NCBI GenBank assembly: GCA_000961655.1
Contig: LADR01000079.1
Coordinates: 1-64,000, forward strand
Reading direction: 5' to 3'
Length of the DNA: 64,000 nt
Source: Desulfatitalea sp. BRH_c12
Lineage (GTDB): Bacteria > Desulfobacterota > Desulfobacteria > Desulfobacterales > Desulfosarcinaceae
Shown: positions 14,707 to 23,449 of the stretch, one piece after another
How the letters are laid out: each line of letters opens with the position of its first letter
How positions within the stretch are numbered: position 1 is the stretch's first letter
Made by a program: the position numbers and the translations under genes
The notes under the pieces: model-generated
Seen by the model: the letters and a program-made list of their open reading frames with translations, nothing else
Told to the model about the DNA's origin: nothing
Database searches by the model: none

Positions 14707-15375
14707 TTATCGGGATGTGGTCACCCCGATGCGCGGGCACATATCAGCCACCGGGCAACGGCTGCAAAACGGTGACACCGGCCGGCAGATCGTCTGCCCG
14801 AACGCGACCAGCAGTTCATTGTAGCGGGTCCAGTGTTTGCGCGGTAATTTTTCCCGCAAAGCCGTTTCGGTCTGCGTGGGCGTTCGGGTGCGCACAAAAC
14901 CAATCCGATTGCTGATCCGGTGCACGTGGGTGTCAACGCACATCGCCGGTGTGCCGAAACCTTCCGACAGGACCAGGTTGGCTGTCTTGCGCCCCACGCC
15001 AGGCAATGCCAGCAGCCCTTCCATGTGATCCGGCACCTCACCGTGAGCGTGCTCCAGAAGAATGCGGCTGATGTCGATCAACCGTTTGGCCTTGGTTGGA
15101 TAAAACCCCACGGGATAGATTAATTGCGCCACCTTGCTTTCACCCAGGGAGAGCAACGCCGCCGGTGTGCGGGCGTGCGCAAAGAGCCGGACCGTAGCGG
15201 CCGAAGTCACTTCGTCCTTGGTGCGCAGTGACAAAAGGGTGGATACCAGAATTTCGAAAGGTGTGGCGCCTCTGTTGGCGATAAAGGTGATGACAGGGGC
15301 CTGCCATTGCACCGACGCCTCGGTCAGCACTGCCATAAAACGATCGATATCCAGTTTTCCACCCCTCGGCGCCAT
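14707..15375 (-). CDS. nth: Endonuclease III (DNA glycosylase / AP lyase)
   Basis: Removes oxidised pyrimidines in base-excision repair. The helix-hairpin-helix LPGVGRKTA carries catalytic Lys130, Asp148 lies in VDTHVHRISNR, and the iron-sulphur cluster motif is complete: Cys197-x6-Cys204-x2-Cys207-x5-Cys213. At 222 residues it matches the family. It is convergent with the LEA14-like gene and divergent from the LexA-like gene. Confidence 0.95.
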   Translation of the reverse strand: MAPRGGKLDIDRFMAVLTEASVQWQAPVITFIANRGATPFEILVSTLLSLRTKDEVTSAATVRLFAHARTPAALLSLGESKVAQLIYPVGFYPTKAKRLIDISRILLEHAHGEVPDHMEGLLALPGVGRKTANLVLSEGFGTPAMCVDTHVHRISNRIGFVRTRTPTQTETALREKLPRKHWTRYNELLVAFGQTICRPVSPFCSRCPVADMCPRIGVTTSR

Positions 15376-15567: not shown

Positions 15568-15640
15568 TTTTAACTATACATTGACATTTACATTGTTTCA
15601 ACTATACTGAATCTAAGTTGCGGGTTAACGTTACCCCCGC
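15568..15640 (+). promoter_or_regulatory. Promoter and candidate operator of the LexA-like cassette
   Basis: A strong promoter is visible: TTGACA (15581-15586), 16-base spacer, TATACT (15603-15608). Two direct repeats, TTTTAACTATAC (15568-15579) and TTTCAACTATAC (15596-15607), flank the -35, the second overlapping the -10. Just downstream, 15620-15640 is an inverted repeat with core TAACGTTA and arms GCGGG / CCCGC. Its position at the expected transcription start fits self-repression by the LexA-like protein. It does not match the CTGT-N8-ACAG box. Confidence 0.6.
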
Positions 15641-15663
15641 CACTAACGAAAAGCGGAGGGCTC

Positions 15664-16290
15664 ATGACGGTCCAACTTTCTCCCAAGCAACAACACCTGC
15701 TGGATTACCTGACCAACGGCCTCGACCGCCAGGGCCACGCTCCCAGCCTGCGGCAGACCGCCGCCGCTCTGGGCGTCAGTCACGCAGCTGTGGCCCAGGG
15801 GCTCAAGGCCCTGGAAGACAAAGGCTATGTCAAACGCGAGGGGCGCTACAGCCGGACCGTGTATCTGCTCAACCCAGCCGGGCAAACCGCCGCAAACCAC
15901 CGCTGGCGCGAAATCCCCGTAATCGGTCGGGTGACCGCCGGGCTGCCCATGTACGCCCAGCAAGAATGGGACGGCACCCTGGTGCTGGACACAGCGTTGT
16001 TCAGGGAGCCGCACCTGTTCGCTCTGCGGGTGCAGGGCGATTCCATGCGCGATGCGGCCATTCTGGACGGCGACTTAGCCATCTGCACGCCCCGCCAGTA
16101 TGCCCACAATGGCGAGATCGTAGTGGCTCTGGTGCACCAGGAAGAGGCCACGGTCAAACGGTTTTTTCTGCATGCCGAGCGGATCGAACTGCGACCGGAA
16201 AATCCACGCTACGCACCCATGTTTTACGCCTTCGATGACGTACTGGTACAGGGCAAGGTGGTGGGCATACAAAGAGGCCCGCAGGAATAA
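15664..16290 (+). CDS. lexA: LexA-family SOS repressor
   Basis: Self-cleaving transcriptional repressor. A winged helix-turn-helix occupies residues 1-68 (LRQTAAALGVSHAAVAQGLKALEDKGYV carries the recognition region). The S24 peptidase domain follows: cleavage site Ala92-Gly93 in RVTAGLPM, catalytic Ser127 in GDSM and Lys165 in ATVKRF. So RecA-stimulated autocleavage should be possible. 208 residues is normal for LexA. AAGCGGAGGG precedes the ATG. It is the first gene of a same-strand series with DUF72, ImuB-like and DnaE2-like genes and probably controls it. It may be a second LexA in the genome, since cassette-specific copies are known. Confidence 0.9.
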   Translation: MTVQLSPKQQHLLDYLTNGLDRQGHAPSLRQTAAALGVSHAAVAQGLKALEDKGYVKREGRYSRTVYLLNPAGQTAANHRWREIPVIGRVTAGLPMYAQQEWDGTLVLDTALFREPHLFALRVQGDSMRDAAILDGDLAICTPRQYAHNGEIVVALVHQEEATVKRFFLHAERIELRPENPRYAPMFYAFDDVLVQGKVVGIQRGPQE

Positions 16291-16319
16291 GAGTTAAAAG
16301 CAAAGTGCCAAAGTGATCC

Positions 16320-17138
16320 ATGAACTTGAAAAATGCCCTATCATCCTGTCCGGCCGGTCTAACGCGAGTAGGCACCAGCGGCTACTCCTATCCTGAATGG
16401 AGCGATGCCGGCTTTTATCCACCGGGAACACCCGCCCGGGAGATGCTGGCGATTTACGCCCGTCGGTTCCCCATTACGGAACTGAACTACACCTGGTACC
16501 ACATGCCCAAGGCCGCCGCCATGGAACGCATGCTCCCCCTGCTGCCGCCCGGTTTCAGCGTTGCCGCCAAACTGACCCGCACGATGACCCACGAAATCGA
16601 CCCACATGCTTGGCGCGGTCAAGCGGCTCAGTACCGGGAAGGGATCGCCCCCTTGATCCAGGCTCAGCGCCTCGTGGCCCTTTTGGTGCAGTTGCCGCCG
16701 GCCTTTGAACGATCCGATAGCAACCGCCGCTATCTGGCCCTCCTGCTCGATGAACTGACCGGTCTGCCGTTGGCCGTCGAATTCCGTCACCGTTCCTGGG
16801 CGGTCGACCGGGTGTTCGCCGAACTGGAACGGCGTCTGATCACCCTTGTCACAGTCGATGTGCCGGATTTGCCCTATCTGTTTCCATCGCTGGAGGTTGT
16901 GACCAATCCGGATCTTTTTTACGTCCGCTTCCACGGTCGCAATGCCAGGGGCTGGCGTTCAGGCAACATGCAAAAGCAATTCGACTATCTTTACAGTGCC
17001 GCCGAGTTGCACCAGTGGAGCCAAGTTTTTATCCCCAAACTGACCACCCAAGCGCACAGCGGCATCATGATTTTCAACAACCACGTTCGCGCCCAGGCGC
17101 CGCGGAATGCCCAAATGCTGAGTTCGTTGATGCGTTAA
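16320..17138 (+). CDS. DUF72 (YecE-like) protein
   Basis: A 272-residue TIM-barrel-like DUF72 protein: VGTSGYSYPEW at the N-terminus, NYTWYHMPKAAAMERM, GFSVAAKLTRTMTH, LAVEFRHRSW, FYVRFHGRN and the C-terminal IFNNHVRAQAPRNAQML are the family signatures. The biochemical function of DUF72 is unknown; some members occur near DNA-repair genes. It begins 29 bases after the LexA-like gene and is very likely in the same transcript. No strong ribosome site is seen. Confidence 0.9.
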   Translation: MNLKNALSSCPAGLTRVGTSGYSYPEWSDAGFYPPGTPAREMLAIYARRFPITELNYTWYHMPKAAAMERMLPLLPPGFSVAAKLTRTMTHEIDPHAWRGQAAQYREGIAPLIQAQRLVALLVQLPPAFERSDSNRRYLALLLDELTGLPLAVEFRHRSWAVDRVFAELERRLITLVTVDVPDLPYLFPSLEVVTNPDLFYVRFHGRNARGWRSGNMQKQFDYLYSAAELHQWSQVFIPKLTTQAHSGIMIFNNHVRAQAPRNAQMLSSLMR

Positions 17139-17169
17139 TTTGGTGATTTGGTGATTCGATGATTCGGTC
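17138..17169. repeat. Tandem octamer repeat (4 units)
   Basis: Four head-to-tail 8-base units, ATTTGGTG, ATTTGGTG, ATTCGATG, ATTCGGTC, begin at the stop codon of the DUF72 gene, in the gap before imuB. Confidence 0.75.
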
Positions 17170-17254
17170 CTTGGGACACACAACCATTCATAAAGACACG
17201 ACTTAAGAATCGATGACAACCCATTAACGAATCTAATCAACGAATCAATAAGCC

Positions 17255-18418
17255 ATGGATCGACACATCATCCATATCAACGTCGCCGATTTTGCCGTAG
17301 CCGTTGAGCGGCGCCTGGACCATCGACTGCATAACCGGCCGGTCGTCATTGCGCCCGAAGGCGCGGCGCGCGCCACCGTTTACGACATGAGCGAAGAGGC
17401 TTATCAAGCCGGCATACGCAAGGGCATGGCGCTGCGCGGGGCAATGCGCCTGTGCCGCGATCTGGCCATCCTGCCCCCTCAACCGGCCCGCTATGAGCAG
17501 GCCATGCACGCGTTGCTGCATCAGGCCCTGCCCTACTCGCCCCTTATCGAGCCAGGCGAGCAGGACGGCCACCTGTTCGTGGATGTAACCGGCACCAGCC
17601 GTTTGTTCGGCCCGCCCGTGGATGTGGCCTGGCGTCTGCGCCGCCAGGCACGCAAAGAGTTGGCCCTGGATCCTATATGGGCGCTGGCCGCCAACAAACT
17701 GGTCGCAAAGGTGGCATCGCGTCTGGTTAAACCCCAGGGGGAGTACATCGTGGCCGCAGGCGACGAGAAGGATTTTCTAGCGCCGTTGCCGGTAGAATTG
17801 ATTCCCGGCATCGAGGCGCCCGACCTGGCGCGGCTGCGCGAATTAAACCTGAACCGGGTCCACCAGGTGACAACGCTCGACACGGCCCACCTGGCGGTAG
17901 TTTTCAACAACCGCGCGACTTTCATCCAAAAGGTCTTGCGCGGCCAAGACAACGCACCCGTGTGCCCGATCGGCCAACAACCGCCCCGCGTGGTTCTGGA
18001 TCACACCTTCGGCACCGACACCCACTCGCCGGACGCGATGACGGCTATCATCTACGCGCTGGTTGAAAAGGCCGGCCACAGCCTGCGCAGCCAGGGCCGG
18101 GTGACCCGACGGATCAGCATCACGGCAGACTACAGCGACGGCCGGCGCAGCATCCGCCAAATCGGCATAGAGCCGCCCACGGCCAATGATTGGGTGCTGT
18201 TCCCCCTGGCGCGCCGTGTCCTGAACCTGGCCGTAACACGACGCACGCGGGTGCGCCACCTGCGCCTGATTTGCGACCGGCTTGTCTTTCCGCCGGCCCA
18301 ACTCCCATTATTTGAGGCCGAACGCAAAACCTTTTTTCACCAACAAGCCCTGGTTGCAGCCGTGGATGGCATCCGCGAACGATTTGGGTGGCAAGCGGTG
18401 GGCACGTGTGCCCGTTAG
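17255..18418 (+). CDS. imuB: ImuB-like inactive Y-family DNA polymerase protein
   Basis: A 387-residue Y-family fold. The first metal motif, HIDMDAFFASVE in active polymerases, reads HINVADFAVAVE here (Asn9 for Asp), and the SxDE motif is replaced by EQDG before HLFVDVTGTSRLFG (about 102-119). Catalysis is therefore not expected, as in ImuB. A beta-clamp-binding motif QLPLF is at 349-353, again as in ImuB, where it tethers the mutasome to the clamp. It lies between the LexA-like/DUF72 pair and the DnaE2-like polymerase. Known cassettes also carry imuA, which is absent. The ATG has little ribosome site. Confidence 0.85.
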   Translation: MDRHIIHINVADFAVAVERRLDHRLHNRPVVIAPEGAARATVYDMSEEAYQAGIRKGMALRGAMRLCRDLAILPPQPARYEQAMHALLHQALPYSPLIEPGEQDGHLFVDVTGTSRLFGPPVDVAWRLRRQARKELALDPIWALAANKLVAKVASRLVKPQGEYIVAAGDEKDFLAPLPVELIPGIEAPDLARLRELNLNRVHQVTTLDTAHLAVVFNNRATFIQKVLRGQDNAPVCPIGQQPPRVVLDHTFGTDTHSPDAMTAIIYALVEKAGHSLRSQGRVTRRISITADYSDGRRSIRQIGIEPPTANDWVLFPLARRVLNLAVTRRTRVRHLRLICDRLVFPPAQLPLFEAERKTFFHQQALVAAVDGIRERFGWQAVGTCAR

Positions 18419-18548
18419 CCGTTTGCCCCATGGCGTTGGGATCGGGGACTACTCGAATCATAGGCGTGATCATTATGAGAGGTAAACGATTTGAAGCTTT
18501 GGCGTGCTGGCAGGTGGCCGACTCACGGCCCAACGGGCAAACGACCCC

Positions 18549-21536
18549 ATGATTCCGTTAACAGTCCGCTCGCATTACTCGCTCATGTGGGGTACGGCTT
18601 CGATCCGGGATTTGTGCCGCACGGCACGGCAGCTGGGCTACGAGCGGCTGGCGCTGACCGATACGGACAACCTCTATGGGATGTGGCCCTTTTTGGATGC
18701 TTGCCGCCAAGAGGGGCTGACGCCGATCATCGGGGCCGAAGTGACCGATCCGCACCGCCGGTGTCGCGCGATCTGCCTGGTGGCCGACAACGCCGGCTAT
18801 GCCGGTTTGTGCCGCCTGCTCACCCAACGCCATATGGACCACGCTTTCGATCTGGCCGTCTGTTTGCCCGCGCATGCCAAAGGGTTAATCGTGCTCACCT
18901 CGGACGCCGGTCTGCTTGAACGCTGGCACCGGGCCGGTGTTTGCGTGGCCGCCGCCATGCCGCGCTCGCCCCTGGCACCGATCCATCCTTTGCGCCAAAA
19001 GGCGCGGGCATTGAACATTCCCCTGACAGCCACGCCCGGCAGCTTTTTTTTGACGCCCTCAGACCATTGTTTGCACCGCCTGCTGCGCGCTATTGCTCTG
19101 AACACCACCCTGGAGCGGCTGCCAGCCGAGCAGACGGCCCCAGCCAATGCCTGGCTGGCCGACCCCCAGGTCTATGCCGAACGCTTCGCGGCCTGTCCCG
19201 AAGCGCTCGCCCACACCGAATCCCTTGCGGAATGCATCACCTTCAACGGACCGCAATTCGGCCTGGTCATGCCACCCTGGCAGGATCGCGAGGGCGAAAG
19301 CGCCAGCGCGGTGCTGCGGCGGGCGGCCTACGACGGGGCGCGCCAGCGCTACGGCCACGGTCTGCCCGAACCGGTCGTGGATCGCCTGGAACACGAACTG
19401 CGCATCATCGACCAGATGCACTTTTCGGCCTATTTTCTCATTGTGCGCGATATTGTCCGCCGCAGCCCGCGCACCTGCGGCCGCGGCTCGGGAGCGGCCT
19501 CGCTGGTGGCTTACAGCCTGGGCATCACCAATGTCTGTCCGGTCAAACACAACCTTTACTTCGGCCGCTTTTTGAATCCCGGCCGCAAGGATCCCCCCGA
19601 CATCGACGTGGATTTTGCCTGGGATGAGCGCGATGCGGTCCTGCACAGTGTGCTCGACCAGTTCGGAGAACAGGCGGCCATGGTGTCGAGCCACATCTTG
19701 TTCCAGCCGCGCATGGCCGTGCGCGAAACTGCCAAGGTATTCGGCCTGACCGATGCCGAAATCGGCCGGATCACCGAGCGGCTGCCGTGGTTCTGGCGCG
19801 TTCAGGATGGGGATGGCAATTTTCTGGCCGACCTGAAAAACCGGCCGGAAACCCGGGCCCTGGATTTTATCCATCCTTGGCCCGAAATTCTGCGCCTGGC
19901 TCAACAGGTGATCGGCACACCCCGCTATCTGTCGGCGCACCCGGGCGGTGTGGTGATCACGCCGGGACCCATCCAGGCGTACGCGCCCGTGCAACGTTCG
20001 GTCAAAGGCGTGCCGATCATCCAATGGGAAAAAGACGCTGCCGAAACGGCCGGACTGGTAAAAATCGATTTACTGGGCAACCGCAGCCTGGCGGTCATCC
20101 GCGATGCGATTGCCAACGTGCATGCCAATGGCGTGCACTTCGACGAAACCCATTGGGAACCCGAAGAGGACCTGCCCACCCAGGAATCTCTGGCCCAGGG
20201 CCGCACCATGGGCTGTTTCTATATCGAAAGCCCGGCCACACGGCTGCTGCAGCAAAAATCCGGCGTGGGGGATTTCGAGCACCTGGTGATCCATTCGAGC
20301 ATCATCCGGCCGGCAGCCAACGAGTTCATCCAGGAATATATCCGGCGACTGCAGGGCGGCGCCTGGGATCCCATCCATCCCCTGCTGGCCGACGTGCTGG
20401 ACGAAACCTACGGCATCATGGTCTATCAGGAGGATGTCTCGCGGGCCGCCATGGCCCTGGCCGGCTTTGACGATGCCGAAGCCGACGGCCTGCGCAAAGT
20501 GATGTCCAAAAAGGACCGCGCGCATCGGCTGCAGGACTACCGGCGGCGGTTTACCGAAGGCGCCCGGCGCAAGGGTGTCACTGACGCTCAAATCGAAGCG
20601 GTCTGGGCCATGATGATGAGCTTTTCGGGCTACTCCTTTTGCAAGCCCCACAGCGCTTCATACGCCCGGGTATCGTTTCAGGCCGCCTATCTCAAGGTTC
20701 ATTTTCCGGCCGCGTTCATGGCTGCGGTGATCAGCAACCAGGGCGGCTTCTACAGCACCTTTGCCTATGTCTCCGAAGCGCGCCGGCTGGGAGTGACGAT
20801 CACACCGCCCGATGTGCGGCACAGCCAGGTCCGCTGGACCGCTGACCAGAAAAACATCCGCGTCGGGTTGATGGCCGTCAAGGGCCTGGCCACCGACACG
20901 GCGCAACGCATCATCGATCAGCGCCCAAATGGCCTTTTCGGCACCCCCGACGATTTTTTCAACCGTGTGCGACCGGACGCTGCCGAGGCACGCGCCCTGA
21001 TTCAGTGCGGTGCCCTGGACGGCATGGCGCCGGCCCTGTCGCGTGCCCAACTGCTGTGGGCCCTGGCCCAGTGGCAGGCCAAACGCCCCCCTGTCCGGGA
21101 TGCCCTGCCGCTGTTCTCCGATGTGCAACCCCTCGCGCCGCCCGAACTGCCACACGATGATCCCCGCGAACGCCTGCGTCGCGAATTCCGGGTACTGGGC
21201 TTTTTGTGCGACCGCCATCCCATGGTCCTTTTCAGGGATGACGCCCAGCGGGCCGGCGCCATCCCGGCCGCCGCGCTGGGACGCCAAGTAGGGCGCCGCA
21301 TCAGGTTCGCCGGCTGGCTGATCACCGGCAAGGTGGTGCATACCAAACGCGGCGATCCCATGGAATTTCTCACCTTCGAAGATGACACGGGCATCGTGGA
21401 AACCACTTTTTTTCCAGAGGCCTACGATCGCTTCTGTCATCTACTCGACCGCGGCCTCCCTTACCTGCTGGGCGGAAAAGTCGAGCAAAACTGGGGGGCG
21501 GCCACATTGACGGTGTCCATGGTGCGGCCGTTATGA
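18549..21536 (+). CDS. dnaE2: Error-prone DNA polymerase III alpha subunit (DnaE2-like)
   Basis: C-family polymerase for translesion synthesis. The ATG at 18549 starts at the family N-terminus (MIPLTVRSHYSLMWG); a GTG 45 bases upstream is possible. Order: PHP domain (1-220), polymerase core with GRGSGAAS, catalytic PPDIDVDFAWDER and VKIDLLGNRSL, fingers region, helix-hairpin-helix (about 770-820) and C-terminal OB fold (about 910-995). The catalytic aspartates are intact, so polymerase activity is expected. The PHP metal motif HxHS is degenerate (TVRS), which argues against intrinsic proofreading. 995 residues is in the DnaE2 range. It follows imuB by 130 bases. Confidence 0.93.
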   Translation: MIPLTVRSHYSLMWGTASIRDLCRTARQLGYERLALTDTDNLYGMWPFLDACRQEGLTPIIGAEVTDPHRRCRAICLVADNAGYAGLCRLLTQRHMDHAFDLAVCLPAHAKGLIVLTSDAGLLERWHRAGVCVAAAMPRSPLAPIHPLRQKARALNIPLTATPGSFFLTPSDHCLHRLLRAIALNTTLERLPAEQTAPANAWLADPQVYAERFAACPEALAHTESLAECITFNGPQFGLVMPPWQDREGESASAVLRRAAYDGARQRYGHGLPEPVVDRLEHELRIIDQMHFSAYFLIVRDIVRRSPRTCGRGSGAASLVAYSLGITNVCPVKHNLYFGRFLNPGRKDPPDIDVDFAWDERDAVLHSVLDQFGEQAAMVSSHILFQPRMAVRETAKVFGLTDAEIGRITERLPWFWRVQDGDGNFLADLKNRPETRALDFIHPWPEILRLAQQVIGTPRYLSAHPGGVVITPGPIQAYAPVQRSVKGVPIIQWEKDAAETAGLVKIDLLGNRSLAVIRDAIANVHANGVHFDETHWEPEEDLPTQESLAQGRTMGCFYIESPATRLLQQKSGVGDFEHLVIHSSIIRPAANEFIQEYIRRLQGGAWDPIHPLLADVLDETYGIMVYQEDVSRAAMALAGFDDAEADGLRKVMSKKDRAHRLQDYRRRFTEGARRKGVTDAQIEAVWAMMMSFSGYSFCKPHSASYARVSFQAAYLKVHFPAAFMAAVISNQGGFYSTFAYVSEARRLGVTITPPDVRHSQVRWTADQKNIRVGLMAVKGLATDTAQRIIDQRPNGLFGTPDDFFNRVRPDAAEARALIQCGALDGMAPALSRAQLLWALAQWQAKRPPVRDALPLFSDVQPLAPPELPHDDPRERLRREFRVLGFLCDRHPMVLFRDDAQRAGAIPAAALGRQVGRRIRFAGWLITGKVVHTKRGDPMEFLTFEDDTGIVETTFFPEAYDRFCHLLDRGLPYLLGGKVEQNWGAATLTVSMVRPL

Positions 21537-21544
21537 CCTACTGT

Positions 21545-21573
21545 TTTACAATGGTTTGCGCTTGATCTATAGT
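21545..21573 (+). promoter_or_regulatory. Candidate sigma-70 promoter for the primase/helicase gene
   Basis: TTTACA (21545-21550), a 17-base spacer and TATAGT (21568-21573) lie just after the dnaE2 stop and 107 bases before the next ATG. Five of six bases match in each box, so the downstream gene may have its own promoter as well as read-through. Confidence 0.5.
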
Positions 21574-21679
21574 GCTTTCCAACCCGAACCGGTTGATCGA
21601 TGGCATTGCGCATCCCGCGGGGTTCGCTCGCGGCTGACGTCTTTCTGACCATTGGAGACACCACTCGCAGAGAAAACTG

Positions 21680-23449
21680 ATGATTCCTTTTGAAATTCTG
21701 AAAACCTTTTACGAAACCCACCTGCCTGAAGCCGTCTGGAAGGGTCATCATCTGGTCGCACCCTGCCCTTTTTGCCAACGCAAGGCCGAAAAGACCGGCA
21801 AAATCGTCGTCCTGCTCCATCCGGAAAGCTTATTTTGCGGCCATTTCAGGTGCCTCAACGGCTGTGTGCCAGGTGGATTTCATTTCCACTTCGGCCGTTT
21901 GATCGGGATCGAAAACTCCCAAGTGCCTGGGTTTGATCCGGACGCAGAGCCATATGCCATGGATGTGCACTACCCAGCGCGCCATCTTGGCGCTGAGATG
22001 GACAAAAACGCCGCCTTGATGAGCCAGGAACAATTCGATCATTTTGCCCGGTTCGGTGTCTCCGAAGCCACCCTCAAACAAATGAGGGTGGGGTTCAATG
22101 GGCGCTATGTGATGTACCCCTACATCCAGGAGAGCGGCTATGCCTATGCTGCGCATGGCGTTATTCCCGGCAGGGATGAAGATCATTTCTGGCATGGCAA
22201 CGAGGCTTTCTTCACCGGCGAAGCAGCCGTTTTCAACGCCCTCGAGATTGGATATAGTGAAGGCGGCGCCCTGTTCATCACCGAAGGTGAAGTCAACGCA
22301 TTGATTCTCAAGGAATTGGGCTATCTTGCCATTGCCGTTCCCTTGGTCACTGGGTTTGCCGACCTGTCGGCCGAACGTCTGGCCCGCATCGAACATCTTT
22401 TTCTGCTGACGAACCACTCCCCTGAAGCCCGGTCGGCCGCACGGGAGTTGGCGGTGCGGGTGGGGTTCAAAGCACGCATTCTGGCGTGGCCAACCCATTT
22501 CAAACGTGGCGACAATTTGGCCGACCTGGCCGCAGAATCTGCCGTGGAAACCAAACAAGCCGTCCACCGCATGATCCAGCAAGCCAAAGCTTTTTCCCCG
22601 TTCGGCACACCTGACAAAGAAAGACGGACATTCCGGGAGTTTCTCGATAAGGAAAAAGGCAAGCCGTTATTGGGCCTGGAAACCGGCTTTACCAAGCTGG
22701 ACCGCCACCTGGAGGGGCTGCGGGGCATCTCCATTCTGGGTGGACCGCCCAAAGCCGGAAAATCATGTTTTTTCATGCAGATTTCAACCGAGGTGTCGCG
22801 CCGCGACGTACCGGTCATTTACTATGATTTTGAAAACGGCCGCCAGAAGATTTACCTGCGCACCCTTGTGCGCATGGCGCGCATAGCCGAAAAAAAAATC
22901 CGTAGCGGTACTTTGAATGCAGAGGAAAAGCAGGCCTTACTGAAAGCGCAAGGCGAACTGGATCGCCTGCTGGCCCATTTCCGGGTGGTCAATGATCGCC
23001 AATTGACCCCGGATACCATGCGTCGGCACATCGATTTTATCCGGCACGAAACCCGCAAAGATGCGTTGCTCATCGTGATCGACAGTCTGCATAAGCTTCC
23101 ATTCAAGGACCTCGCCGAACGGCGCACGGGCATCGATTCATGGCTGCGCCAATTGGAGGCTATCCGCGATGAGCATCAGGTCTGTTTTTTGGTGATCAGC
23201 GAACTAAGCCGTGGAAAAGGAGGCGGTTACGGTGAGAAACCCGACTTGAGTTCCTTCAAGGAATCAGGCGACATCGAGTACACCGCCGACAATGCGCTGA
23301 TCCTGATGCCTGACTGGGACCCCATGGCGCCCAACCCGGCGCGCCAGCGCAAGAGCATTTTGTGGATGGTGGCCAGCCGCGAGGCTTCACCCGGTCAAGT
23401 GGCCGAGTATGAACTGGATTTTCCTTTTTGGCGTTTCAAGGAGATTTAA
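21680..23449 (+). CDS. Primase/helicase-like protein (zinc finger, TOPRIM-like, RecA-like ATPase)
   Basis: A 589-residue protein with the layout of phage T7 gp4 or Twinkle. The N-terminal zinc-binding region has Cys29, Cys32, Cys53, Cys58 and Cys62. A TOPRIM-like domain (about 195-270) keeps LFITEGE, but the following acidic residues are changed (VNA for xDA, TNHSPEA for DxDxAG), so primer synthesis is doubtful. The C-terminal RecA/DnaB-like ATPase (about 330-589) has Walker A GGPPKAGKS and Walker B LLIVIDSLHK. It lies 143 bases after dnaE2 on the same strand and could be a helicase partner of the mutagenesis cassette, although it may use its own promoter. Confidence 0.82.
   Translation: MIPFEILKTFYETHLPEAVWKGHHLVAPCPFCQRKAEKTGKIVVLLHPESLFCGHFRCLNGCVPGGFHFHFGRLIGIENSQVPGFDPDAEPYAMDVHYPARHLGAEMDKNAALMSQEQFDHFARFGVSEATLKQMRVGFNGRYVMYPYIQESGYAYAAHGVIPGRDEDHFWHGNEAFFTGEAAVFNALEIGYSEGGALFITEGEVNALILKELGYLAIAVPLVTGFADLSAERLARIEHLFLLTNHSPEARSAARELAVRVGFKARILAWPTHFKRGDNLADLAAESAVETKQAVHRMIQQAKAFSPFGTPDKERRTFREFLDKEKGKPLLGLETGFTKLDRHLEGLRGISILGGPPKAGKSCFFMQISTEVSRRDVPVIYYDFENGRQKIYLRTLVRMARIAEKKIRSGTLNAEEKQALLKAQGELDRLLAHFRVVNDRQLTPDTMRRHIDFIRHETRKDALLIVIDSLHKLPFKDLAERRTGIDSWLRQLEAIRDEHQVCFLVISELSRGKGGGYGEKPDLSSFKESGDIEYTADNALILMPDWDPMAPNPARQRKSILWMVASREASPGQVAEYELDFPFWRFKEI

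Follow-up and report, generated by a model that had tools for sequence, protein, structure and literature searches.

SOS-type cassettes of the ImuA-ImuB-DnaE2 mutasome combine a Y-family scaffold with a C-family polymerase. DnaE2 systems that lack ImuA have also been published, and the available text of two papers proposes RecA in the place of ImuA (PMC6511836; PMC12926913). Here we analyze a locus of Desulfatitalea sp. BRH_c12 that resembles the latter kind, located within a 64,000-nucleotide stretch of DNA (assembly GCA_000961655.1, contig LADR01000079.1, positions 1 to 64,000; hereafter, the window). The host genome is a 6.0 Mb draft of 91 contigs, 98% complete. The genes between 15664 and 21536 probably form a LexA-controlled translesion-synthesis operon of the DnaE2B-iPolY-RecA type, iPolY being an inactivated Y-family polymerase, which is extended by a DUF72 protein as an accessory. 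The ImuA-less kind of cassette has already been described; the membership of DUF72, conserved but dispensable, is apparently unreported. A literature search poor in subscription papers and without supplements returned no published account of DUF72 as a cassette member, nor of the operator candidate described below.

Organization of the locus

Five open reading frames follow one another on the plus strand, in the series that an earlier note on this DNA had described: lexA, the DUF72 gene, a Y-family gene, a dnaE-type gene and a DnaB-like helicase gene. The gaps between successive genes measure 29, 116, 130 and 143 bp, and the first four, which would be co-transcribed, have no further gene between them. 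The genes are:

15664..16290, plus strand: lexA (TIGR00498, 173 bits, cut-off 111)
16320..17138, plus strand: DUF72 gene, encoding a predicted TIM barrel of a cassette-specific clade (PF01904, 180 bits, cut-off 25)
17255..18418, plus strand: iPolY, the inactivated Y-family polymerase called 'ImuB-like' in the earlier note (IMS 115 bits, IMS_C 49 bits)
18549..21536, plus strand: dnaE2, of a clade not linked to imuA/imuB (alternative GTG start at 18504, the start in the open reading frame list)
21680..23449, plus strand: DnaB-like helicase, a relative of phage-type primase-helicases (DnaB_C, 102 bits, cut-off 27)

The relatives compared here are the best 80 of 201 relatives from a scan with the iPolY alignment, along with loci named individually; they are not independent, and some are near-copies of each other. 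Of the 63 loci with enough sequence on either side, 45 show the full order lexA-DUF72-iPolY-dnaE2, or 46 when L057, which the rule of our script missed, is added; the arrangement is therefore more than chance. Among the 67 loci with at least 2.2 kb upstream of iPolY, lexA is found in 61, and both lexA and DUF72 in 52. A dnaE2 gene follows iPolY in 70 of 76 loci by the same rule, or 71 with L057, whose long reading frame escaped it. DUF72 lies upstream of iPolY in 61 of the 74 loci that have at least 1.1 kb there, a count that leaves out 6 loci with less; three of the 61 copies (L058, L080, L118) look broken. The earlier note had placed DUF72 in the position of imuA, and these counts make it a real and conserved member of the cassette.

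Two variants of the layout were also observed. Genome G013 carries two cassettes (L046, L052), the DUF72 of one being only 166 residues long, and in Desulfatitalea alkaliphila (L041, L062, L208-L210) the cassette is split, with the operator motif, DUF72 and iPolY at one site and dnaE2 and the helicase at another.

The Y-family protein

In an alignment with the genome's own active PolY, Asn9 of iPolY stands at the place of the first catalytic Asp, as it does in 89 of the clade's 90 rows (the remaining one has Asp), and Gly105-His106 stands at the Asp-Glu pair in 90 of 90. We take the aligned Asp and Asp-Glu places to be catalytic in PolY. These replacements mark the ImuB-like protein as an inactivated member of the Y-family polymerases. 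Two elements are recognized near its C-terminus:

18299..18313, plus strand: QLPLF, a beta-clamp-binding-like motif, iPolY residues 349-353
18344..18409, plus strand: RecA-NT-like tail, iPolY residues 364-385, recognized by a profile test

The protein comprises 387 residues and ends two residues past the RecA-NT-like stretch, and so has no fused ImuB-C. A profile built from 90 iPolY tails finds its best place in the genome's RecA at residues 9-30, with a score equaled by one of 2000 shuffled RecAs; this test was made after a single-sequence test that gave no significant result. Of the 90 rows, 85 show a loose RecA-NT-like pattern and 88 a loose clamp-like one. Within QLPLF, residues Q349, L352 and F353 are conserved in the 13 rows aligned, and the canonical clamp motif is given as QLxLF in the available text of PMC11791011. 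Binding of both RecA and the clamp by iPolY is anticipated from these similarities.

Compared with a plasmid ImuB, iPolY gives a best local alignment of only 81 residues. Together with the missing ImuB-C, this shows that the protein should not be taken for an ImuB, as the earlier name suggested. The genome's own active PolY (L238:1055-2245 in genome G000, contig C26) also ends in a RecA-NT-like stretch, which scores 20.7 bits with the iPolY tail profile.

In three relatives (L087, L100, L106) a gene, presumably for a ROK-type sugar kinase-like protein, separates iPolY from dnaE2; the extra genes in this interval in some relatives are, we assume, of ROK-type kinase, hemerythrin-like and toxin-antitoxin-like kinds. 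They were considered as possible carriers of ImuB-C and dropped. In DnaE2X systems iPolY is accompanied by a standalone ImuB-C; in the window, the four cassette genes are not interrupted by any other gene.

The DnaE2 polymerase

The start at 18549 fits the homologues, three of which align with a query begun there from its first residue onward. With PRK05672, the NCBIfam model of the error-prone polymerase, the window protein scores 565 bits against a cut-off of 939, and a plasmid DnaE2 encoded beside imuA and a Y-family gene scores 1543 bits. A quick tree with 34 rows groups the window DnaE2 with 16 other rows of the cassette clade (support 100); six iPolY-dnaE2 loci of the phylum that are more distant come next (98), followed by two PolY-DnaE2 rows from Bacteroidota (99). 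This group stands apart from one Thermomicrobium row and from six rows that we labeled imuA/imuB-linked, of which four have an annotated imuA and two a 'damage-inducible protein' or 'hypothetical protein' in its place. The polymerase is thus of the DnaE2 type, as had been proposed, although not of the imuA/imuB-linked kind.

The place of ImuA

A search of the 98% complete draft genome with NF033429 gave three matches at E values up to 10, all below the cut-off (best 49 of 150 bits), and the best of them is recA itself (TIGR02012, 572 bits). The absence of imuA reported in the earlier note therefore holds for the locus and for the rest of this draft, where the search for an unlinked copy found none. 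With ImuA-less systems and a RecA proposal already published, this absence is already explained. Because iPolY carries a RecA-NT tail and no ImuB-C, and DnaE2 falls outside the imuA/imuB-linked clade, the substitute for ImuA in this cassette is likely to be RecA rather than DUF72 or the helicase.

The earlier note had suggested that DUF72 may fill the ImuA role, on account of a position upstream of the Y-family gene that is imuA's own in known cassettes. We consider this highly improbable. The protein is predicted to fold as a TIM barrel, with DUF72s and other TIM barrels as its best structural matches; on the tree it was lost about nine times from cassettes in which iPolY stayed; and the iPolY tail points to RecA itself. 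Moreover, DUF72 occurs beside imuA-imuB-dnaE2 in three Burkholderiaceae plasmid cassettes and is therefore not a replacement of ImuA. On the grounds of fold, co-occurrence and loss, the candidate was rejected. What stands of the earlier interpretation is a lexA-led, imuA-less cassette with a DUF72 member; the assignment of DUF72 or the helicase to the role of ImuA does not.

LexA and a candidate operator

The window lexA is the sole match to TIGR00498 in the genome at E values up to 0.001, and its product carries VTAGLP (with the A-G site), GDSM and ATVKR, to which we ascribe their presumed LexA functions. On that understanding, and with the score above the family cut-off, the protein is a LexA-family repressor with an intact cleavage site, as the earlier note had it. 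Upstream of the gene lie:

15575..15593, plus strand: candidate operator TATACATTGACATTTACAT, from the motif search, with one mismatch to the TTTACATTGACATTTACAT of relatives
15581..15608, plus strand: sigma-70-type promoter-like site TTGACA-16-TATACT, with 11 of 12 consensus matches, by consensus only

The candidate operator overlaps the -35 box of the cassette. It consists of tandem TKACAT-like hexamers and can also be described as a direct repeat, TTTACAT-N5-TTTACAT. A palindromic LexA box was rejected: the motif search forced palindromes, the sites that it found are tandem repeats, and they were re-counted as such. The 19-bp repeat of the relatives, TTTACATTGACATTTACAT, is present at up to three mismatches in 55 of 65 regions upstream of lexA, at up to one mismatch in 46 and exactly in 32, and each of 20 letter-shuffled motifs was found in none of the 65. 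The reversed motif matches 45 of these regions and was judged unfit as a control because the repeat, by our explanation, reads nearly the same backwards. TATACATTGACATTTACAT is the only match to the motif in the window at up to three mismatches, with none in 100 shuffles.

At up to one mismatch, 14 copies occur in 26 genomes, one per genome, and 13 are at the cassette; near the remaining copy (genome G283), no cassette gene was found within 1.5 kb. In D. alkaliphila and its sister SH-MAG143 the motif lies shortly before DUF72-iPolY, with no lexA at the locus and this dnaE2 on another contig, followed in D. alkaliphila by the helicase gene. Based on this conservation, LexA would be expected to bind the 19-bp repeat.

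Two side observations concern this system. D. alkaliphila has two divergent LexA relatives away from the cassette, one presumably beside a transposase-like gene and the other near what we take to be a recombinase-like gene. In G277:C273:10084-10114 the operator candidate is longer, with about five consecutive hexamers, a length suggestive of a repeat-array operator.

It is a plausible possibility, toward which we lean a little less than halfway, that LexA serves this operon alone, as a dedicated local repressor, and is not a global SOS regulator. This would be compatible with the operon proposed here and would agree with the single near-exact copy per genome, situated at the cassette in 13 of 14 cases, and with the lack of a visible motif in the 250 bases before recA. 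Against it, the window LexA is the only one found in the genome, and one well-conserved autoregulatory site is compatible with weaker sites at other genes; at up to three mismatches, the genome holds five matches versus three for the reversed control.

Conservation and history of DUF72

For trees and distances, matches of DUF72, lexA and dnaE2 that cover less than 90% of the model were excluded, after which the 80 loci gave 59 DUF72, 65 lexA and 63 dnaE2 sequences. In a quick tree with long outgroup branches, 65 cassette DUF72s form one clade (support 99) versus 20 others; the unlinked DUF72s of six genomes with distant iPolY-dnaE2 loci fall outside this clade. Among 247 evenly drawn genomes of the phylum, including that of the window, nine have an iPolY above 420 bits, with an adjacent DUF72 in five and not in four. 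All five DUF72s of at least 384 bits in these genomes adjoin iPolY, and the next DUF72 scores 252 bits. The second DUF72 of the host genome lies elsewhere and scores 113 bits.

A quick iPolY tree of 100 rows comprises 71 with DUF72, 17 without, 10 of a distant outgroup (one of them, L151, apparently an active PolY) and two unscored (L090, L102). The presence of DUF72 on this tree requires 10 changes, versus a mean of 24 after shuffling. The early-branching rows of the clade have DUF72, several deep forks being open. We read this history as one gain followed by about nine losses, the count of changes by itself being unable to separate gain from loss; the repeated loss marks DUF72 as accessory. 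Where all four genes are available (44 loci), DUF72 distances track those of iPolY at 0.80 and of DnaE2 at 0.81, close to the 0.85 between iPolY and DnaE2, and lexA distances follow the other cassette genes less well (0.60-0.63).

DUF72 might instead be a passenger: an unrelated gene that became trapped in the operon, was passed on vertically and plays no part in translesion synthesis. The roughly nine losses not accompanied by loss of iPolY agree with such a history, as does the absence of DUF72 from those more distant iPolY-dnaE2 loci that were inspected, and the matching distances are by themselves no proof of function because the four genes are inherited together. We regard it as unlikely, since DUF72 is kept in 61 of 74 loci, across iPolYs down to 45% identity, and its predicted binding residues are invariant in 65 of 65 cassette DUF72s. 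DUF72s from outside the cassette clade also lie next to dnaE2 on the three Burkholderiaceae plasmids, and DUF72 is reported near PolB2 in the available text of PMC11791011.

Predicted structure of DUF72

The structural model of the window DUF72 (pLDDT 90) displays a TIM-barrel fold, and its top structural matches are other DUF72s. It shares 34% identity with Tm1631 (PDB code 1vpq) at a TM of 0.82 in Foldseek. Following the DUF72s are a GH18 chitinase (E 1.3e-4), UVDE (E 1.4e-4) with three further UVDE entries, sugar isomerases and Endo IV (E 1e-3), all of the non-DUF72 matches having a TM of about 0.5.

Tm1631 has been proposed, on computational grounds, to bind damaged DNA through Asn44, Tyr47, Tyr48, Lys72, Gln114, Arg145 and Arg191 (available text of PMC3828134). 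We mapped these residues by alignment, with a numbering offset of 12 deduced from matching residues. The corresponding positions N56, W59, Y60, K84, Q124, R156 and R203 are all invariant in 65 of 65 cassette DUF72s. The place of Tyr47 is occupied by Trp in every one of them and by Tyr or Phe in all 20 others. The predicted DNA-contact site thus appears to be kept, with a clade-specific change at the predicted wedge residue (W59). The contact residues that are common to non-cassette DUF72s are by themselves no mark of a mutasome role.

DUF72 beside other repair systems

Among plasmids, 41 records hold a relative of the window DUF72, versus 777 with a dnaE2 locus, so that DUF72 is rare among plasmid dnaE2 loci. 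Fourteen of the 41 were inspected, over 3 to 9 kb on each side and less at record ends. One of them, the mobilizable plasmid Do28_1 of Desulfosarcina ovata (L222, NZ_AP021877.1, 54119-73267), carries a lexA-DUF72-iPolY-dnaE2 cassette of the window type, with an iPolY annotated only as a hypothetical protein. On plasmids of Paraburkholderia acidisoli, Paraburkholderia sp. D15 and Caballeronia grimmiae, DUF72 lies 10, 19 and 361 bp, respectively, after imuA-(Y-family gene)-dnaE2. Two further plasmids have imuA 4 to 6 kb from DUF72, and the remaining eight show no such link. On one of these eight (L232, from Paraburkholderia graminis), a Ku gene, another repair neighbor, lies about 2 kb from DUF72.

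In the mutasome literature that was searched, which did not extend to supplementary tables, PMC11791011 alone mentions DUF72, and its available text describes, for both archaea and bacteria, a PolB2 neighborhood in which DUF72 is enriched 'to some degree'. The word is absent from the available text of PMC12926913 and PMC6511836, supplements aside.

From these associations we tentatively suggest, with doubt outweighing confidence, that DUF72 recurs as a factor of mutasomes, a TIM barrel that binds or incises lesions and couples their handling to error-prone synthesis. It would have been recruited separately by three unrelated mutasomes (DnaE2B-iPolY, plasmid ImuA-ImuB-DnaE2 and, in the literature, PolB2), and the Trp wedge would be an innovation of the DnaE2B branch. 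Members of the widespread DUF72 family have solved structures, and the family has no assigned function; the cassette clade, as sampled, provides it with a testable biological setting. The second link, to imuA-imuB-dnaE2, leads in the same direction. If the suggestion is true, the inventory of mutasome parts published so far would be missing a member.

The helicase and other neighbors

The DnaB-like protein belongs to phage replicative-helicase or primase/helicase families, and scores 91 of the 385 bits of the replicative DnaB model TIGR00665. It is encoded in 11 of 11 genomes of the same genus, including the draft G007 (520 contigs), where both iPolY and this DnaE2 went undetected, and in two of 19 genomes of other genera of the family, away from the cassette. 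From dnaE2 it is separated by 2.5 to 3.3 kb in two sisters; in a third, G008, the separation is about 13 kb. A promoter-like site precedes the gene:

21545-21573: the helicase's own promoter-like site, with 10 of 12 consensus matches

We judge the helicase to be a genus-level neighbor outside the cassette. The earlier note had proposed it as an ImuA-like ATPase, and it could be regarded as a working part of the mutasome, lying as it does directly downstream of dnaE2 on the same strand at 143 bp, and still adjoining dnaE2 in D. alkaliphila, where both are away from DUF72-iPolY. This seems very unlikely in view of its DnaB_C and phage-type families, the variable spacing in sisters, the promoter-like site of its own and the draft that has it with no detected iPolY or DnaE2. 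As an ImuA substitute it was rejected on its genus-limited occurrence and its off-cassette location elsewhere in the family. The neighborhood survey thus bears out the co-occurrence of DUF72 with the polymerase genes, and not that of the helicase beyond the genus.

Upstream of lexA and divergent to it lies an endonuclease III-like gene (nth; 14707-15375), a relative of which is present in 15 of 20 stretches around the cassette in the family.

Proposed function of the operon

In the mechanism that we propose, LexA would repress the operon through the repeat operator over the -35 box. Upon DNA damage, RecA filaments would trigger the self-cleavage of LexA and the genes would be induced. The catalytically dead iPolY would act as a scaffold, with its RecA-NT tail contacting RecA and QLPLF contacting the clamp, and would bring in DnaE2, which would carry out the synthesis. 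The DUF72 accessory may bind, and perhaps process, lesion-bearing DNA for the complex.

Several observations weigh against this proposal. DUF72 is absent from 13 of 74 loci with room for it and from 17 rows of the iPolY tree, and hence dispensable, and inspection of more distant iPolY-dnaE2 loci did not reveal it there. Most of its kept residues are also kept in 20 non-cassette DUF72s. Its likeness to UVDE and Endo IV is weak and not unique, with a TM of about 0.5 and a GH18 chitinase ranking just above UVDE, and DUF72 crystals are without metal according to the available text of PMC3828134. The motif is absent from 10 of 65 regions upstream of lexA, and the draft G006 keeps the motif with no LexA found at E 1e-8. 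A pairwise comparison of the RecA N-terminus with iPolY is not significant, 36 of 200 shuffles scoring as high. Finally, the sequences compared with the window DnaE2, Bacteroidota PolY-DnaE2 among them, include no gbDinB2 and none labeled DnaE2B by its authors.

Comparison with known systems

UVDE and endonuclease IV are TIM barrels like the window DUF72, with 13-14% and 7-9% identity, respectively, and a TM of about 0.5. Tm1631 (PDB code 1vpq) shares its predicted DNA-contact residues with the window protein and has Tyr47 where the latter has Trp59; no cassette is described for it in the available text of PMC3828134 and PMC4939058. The PolB2-PPB2-iRadA mutasome has DUF72, and in bacteria also lexA, enriched in its neighborhood, whereas it relies on a B-family polymerase and an inactive RadA, its polymerase genes being unrelated (available text of PMC11791011). 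The ImuA-ImuB-DnaE2 mutasome is an SOS-type cassette of the same general design, and three Burkholderiaceae plasmid versions also carry DUF72; by contrast, the window cassette has neither ImuA nor a fused ImuB-C, and its DnaE2 is of another clade.

Its closest counterpart is the DnaE2B-iPolY-RecA system of the gbDinB2/scDinB2 type. As given in the available text of PMC12926913 and PMC6511836, that system has the same inactive Y-family protein with a RecA-NT tail, the same DnaE2 outside the ImuA/ImuB-linked kind alongside it, often lexA, and no ImuA in the genome. The Desulfatitalea locus differs from this design in having DUF72 as a conserved member, and its analysis also yields a direct-repeat LexA operator candidate for Desulfobacterota.

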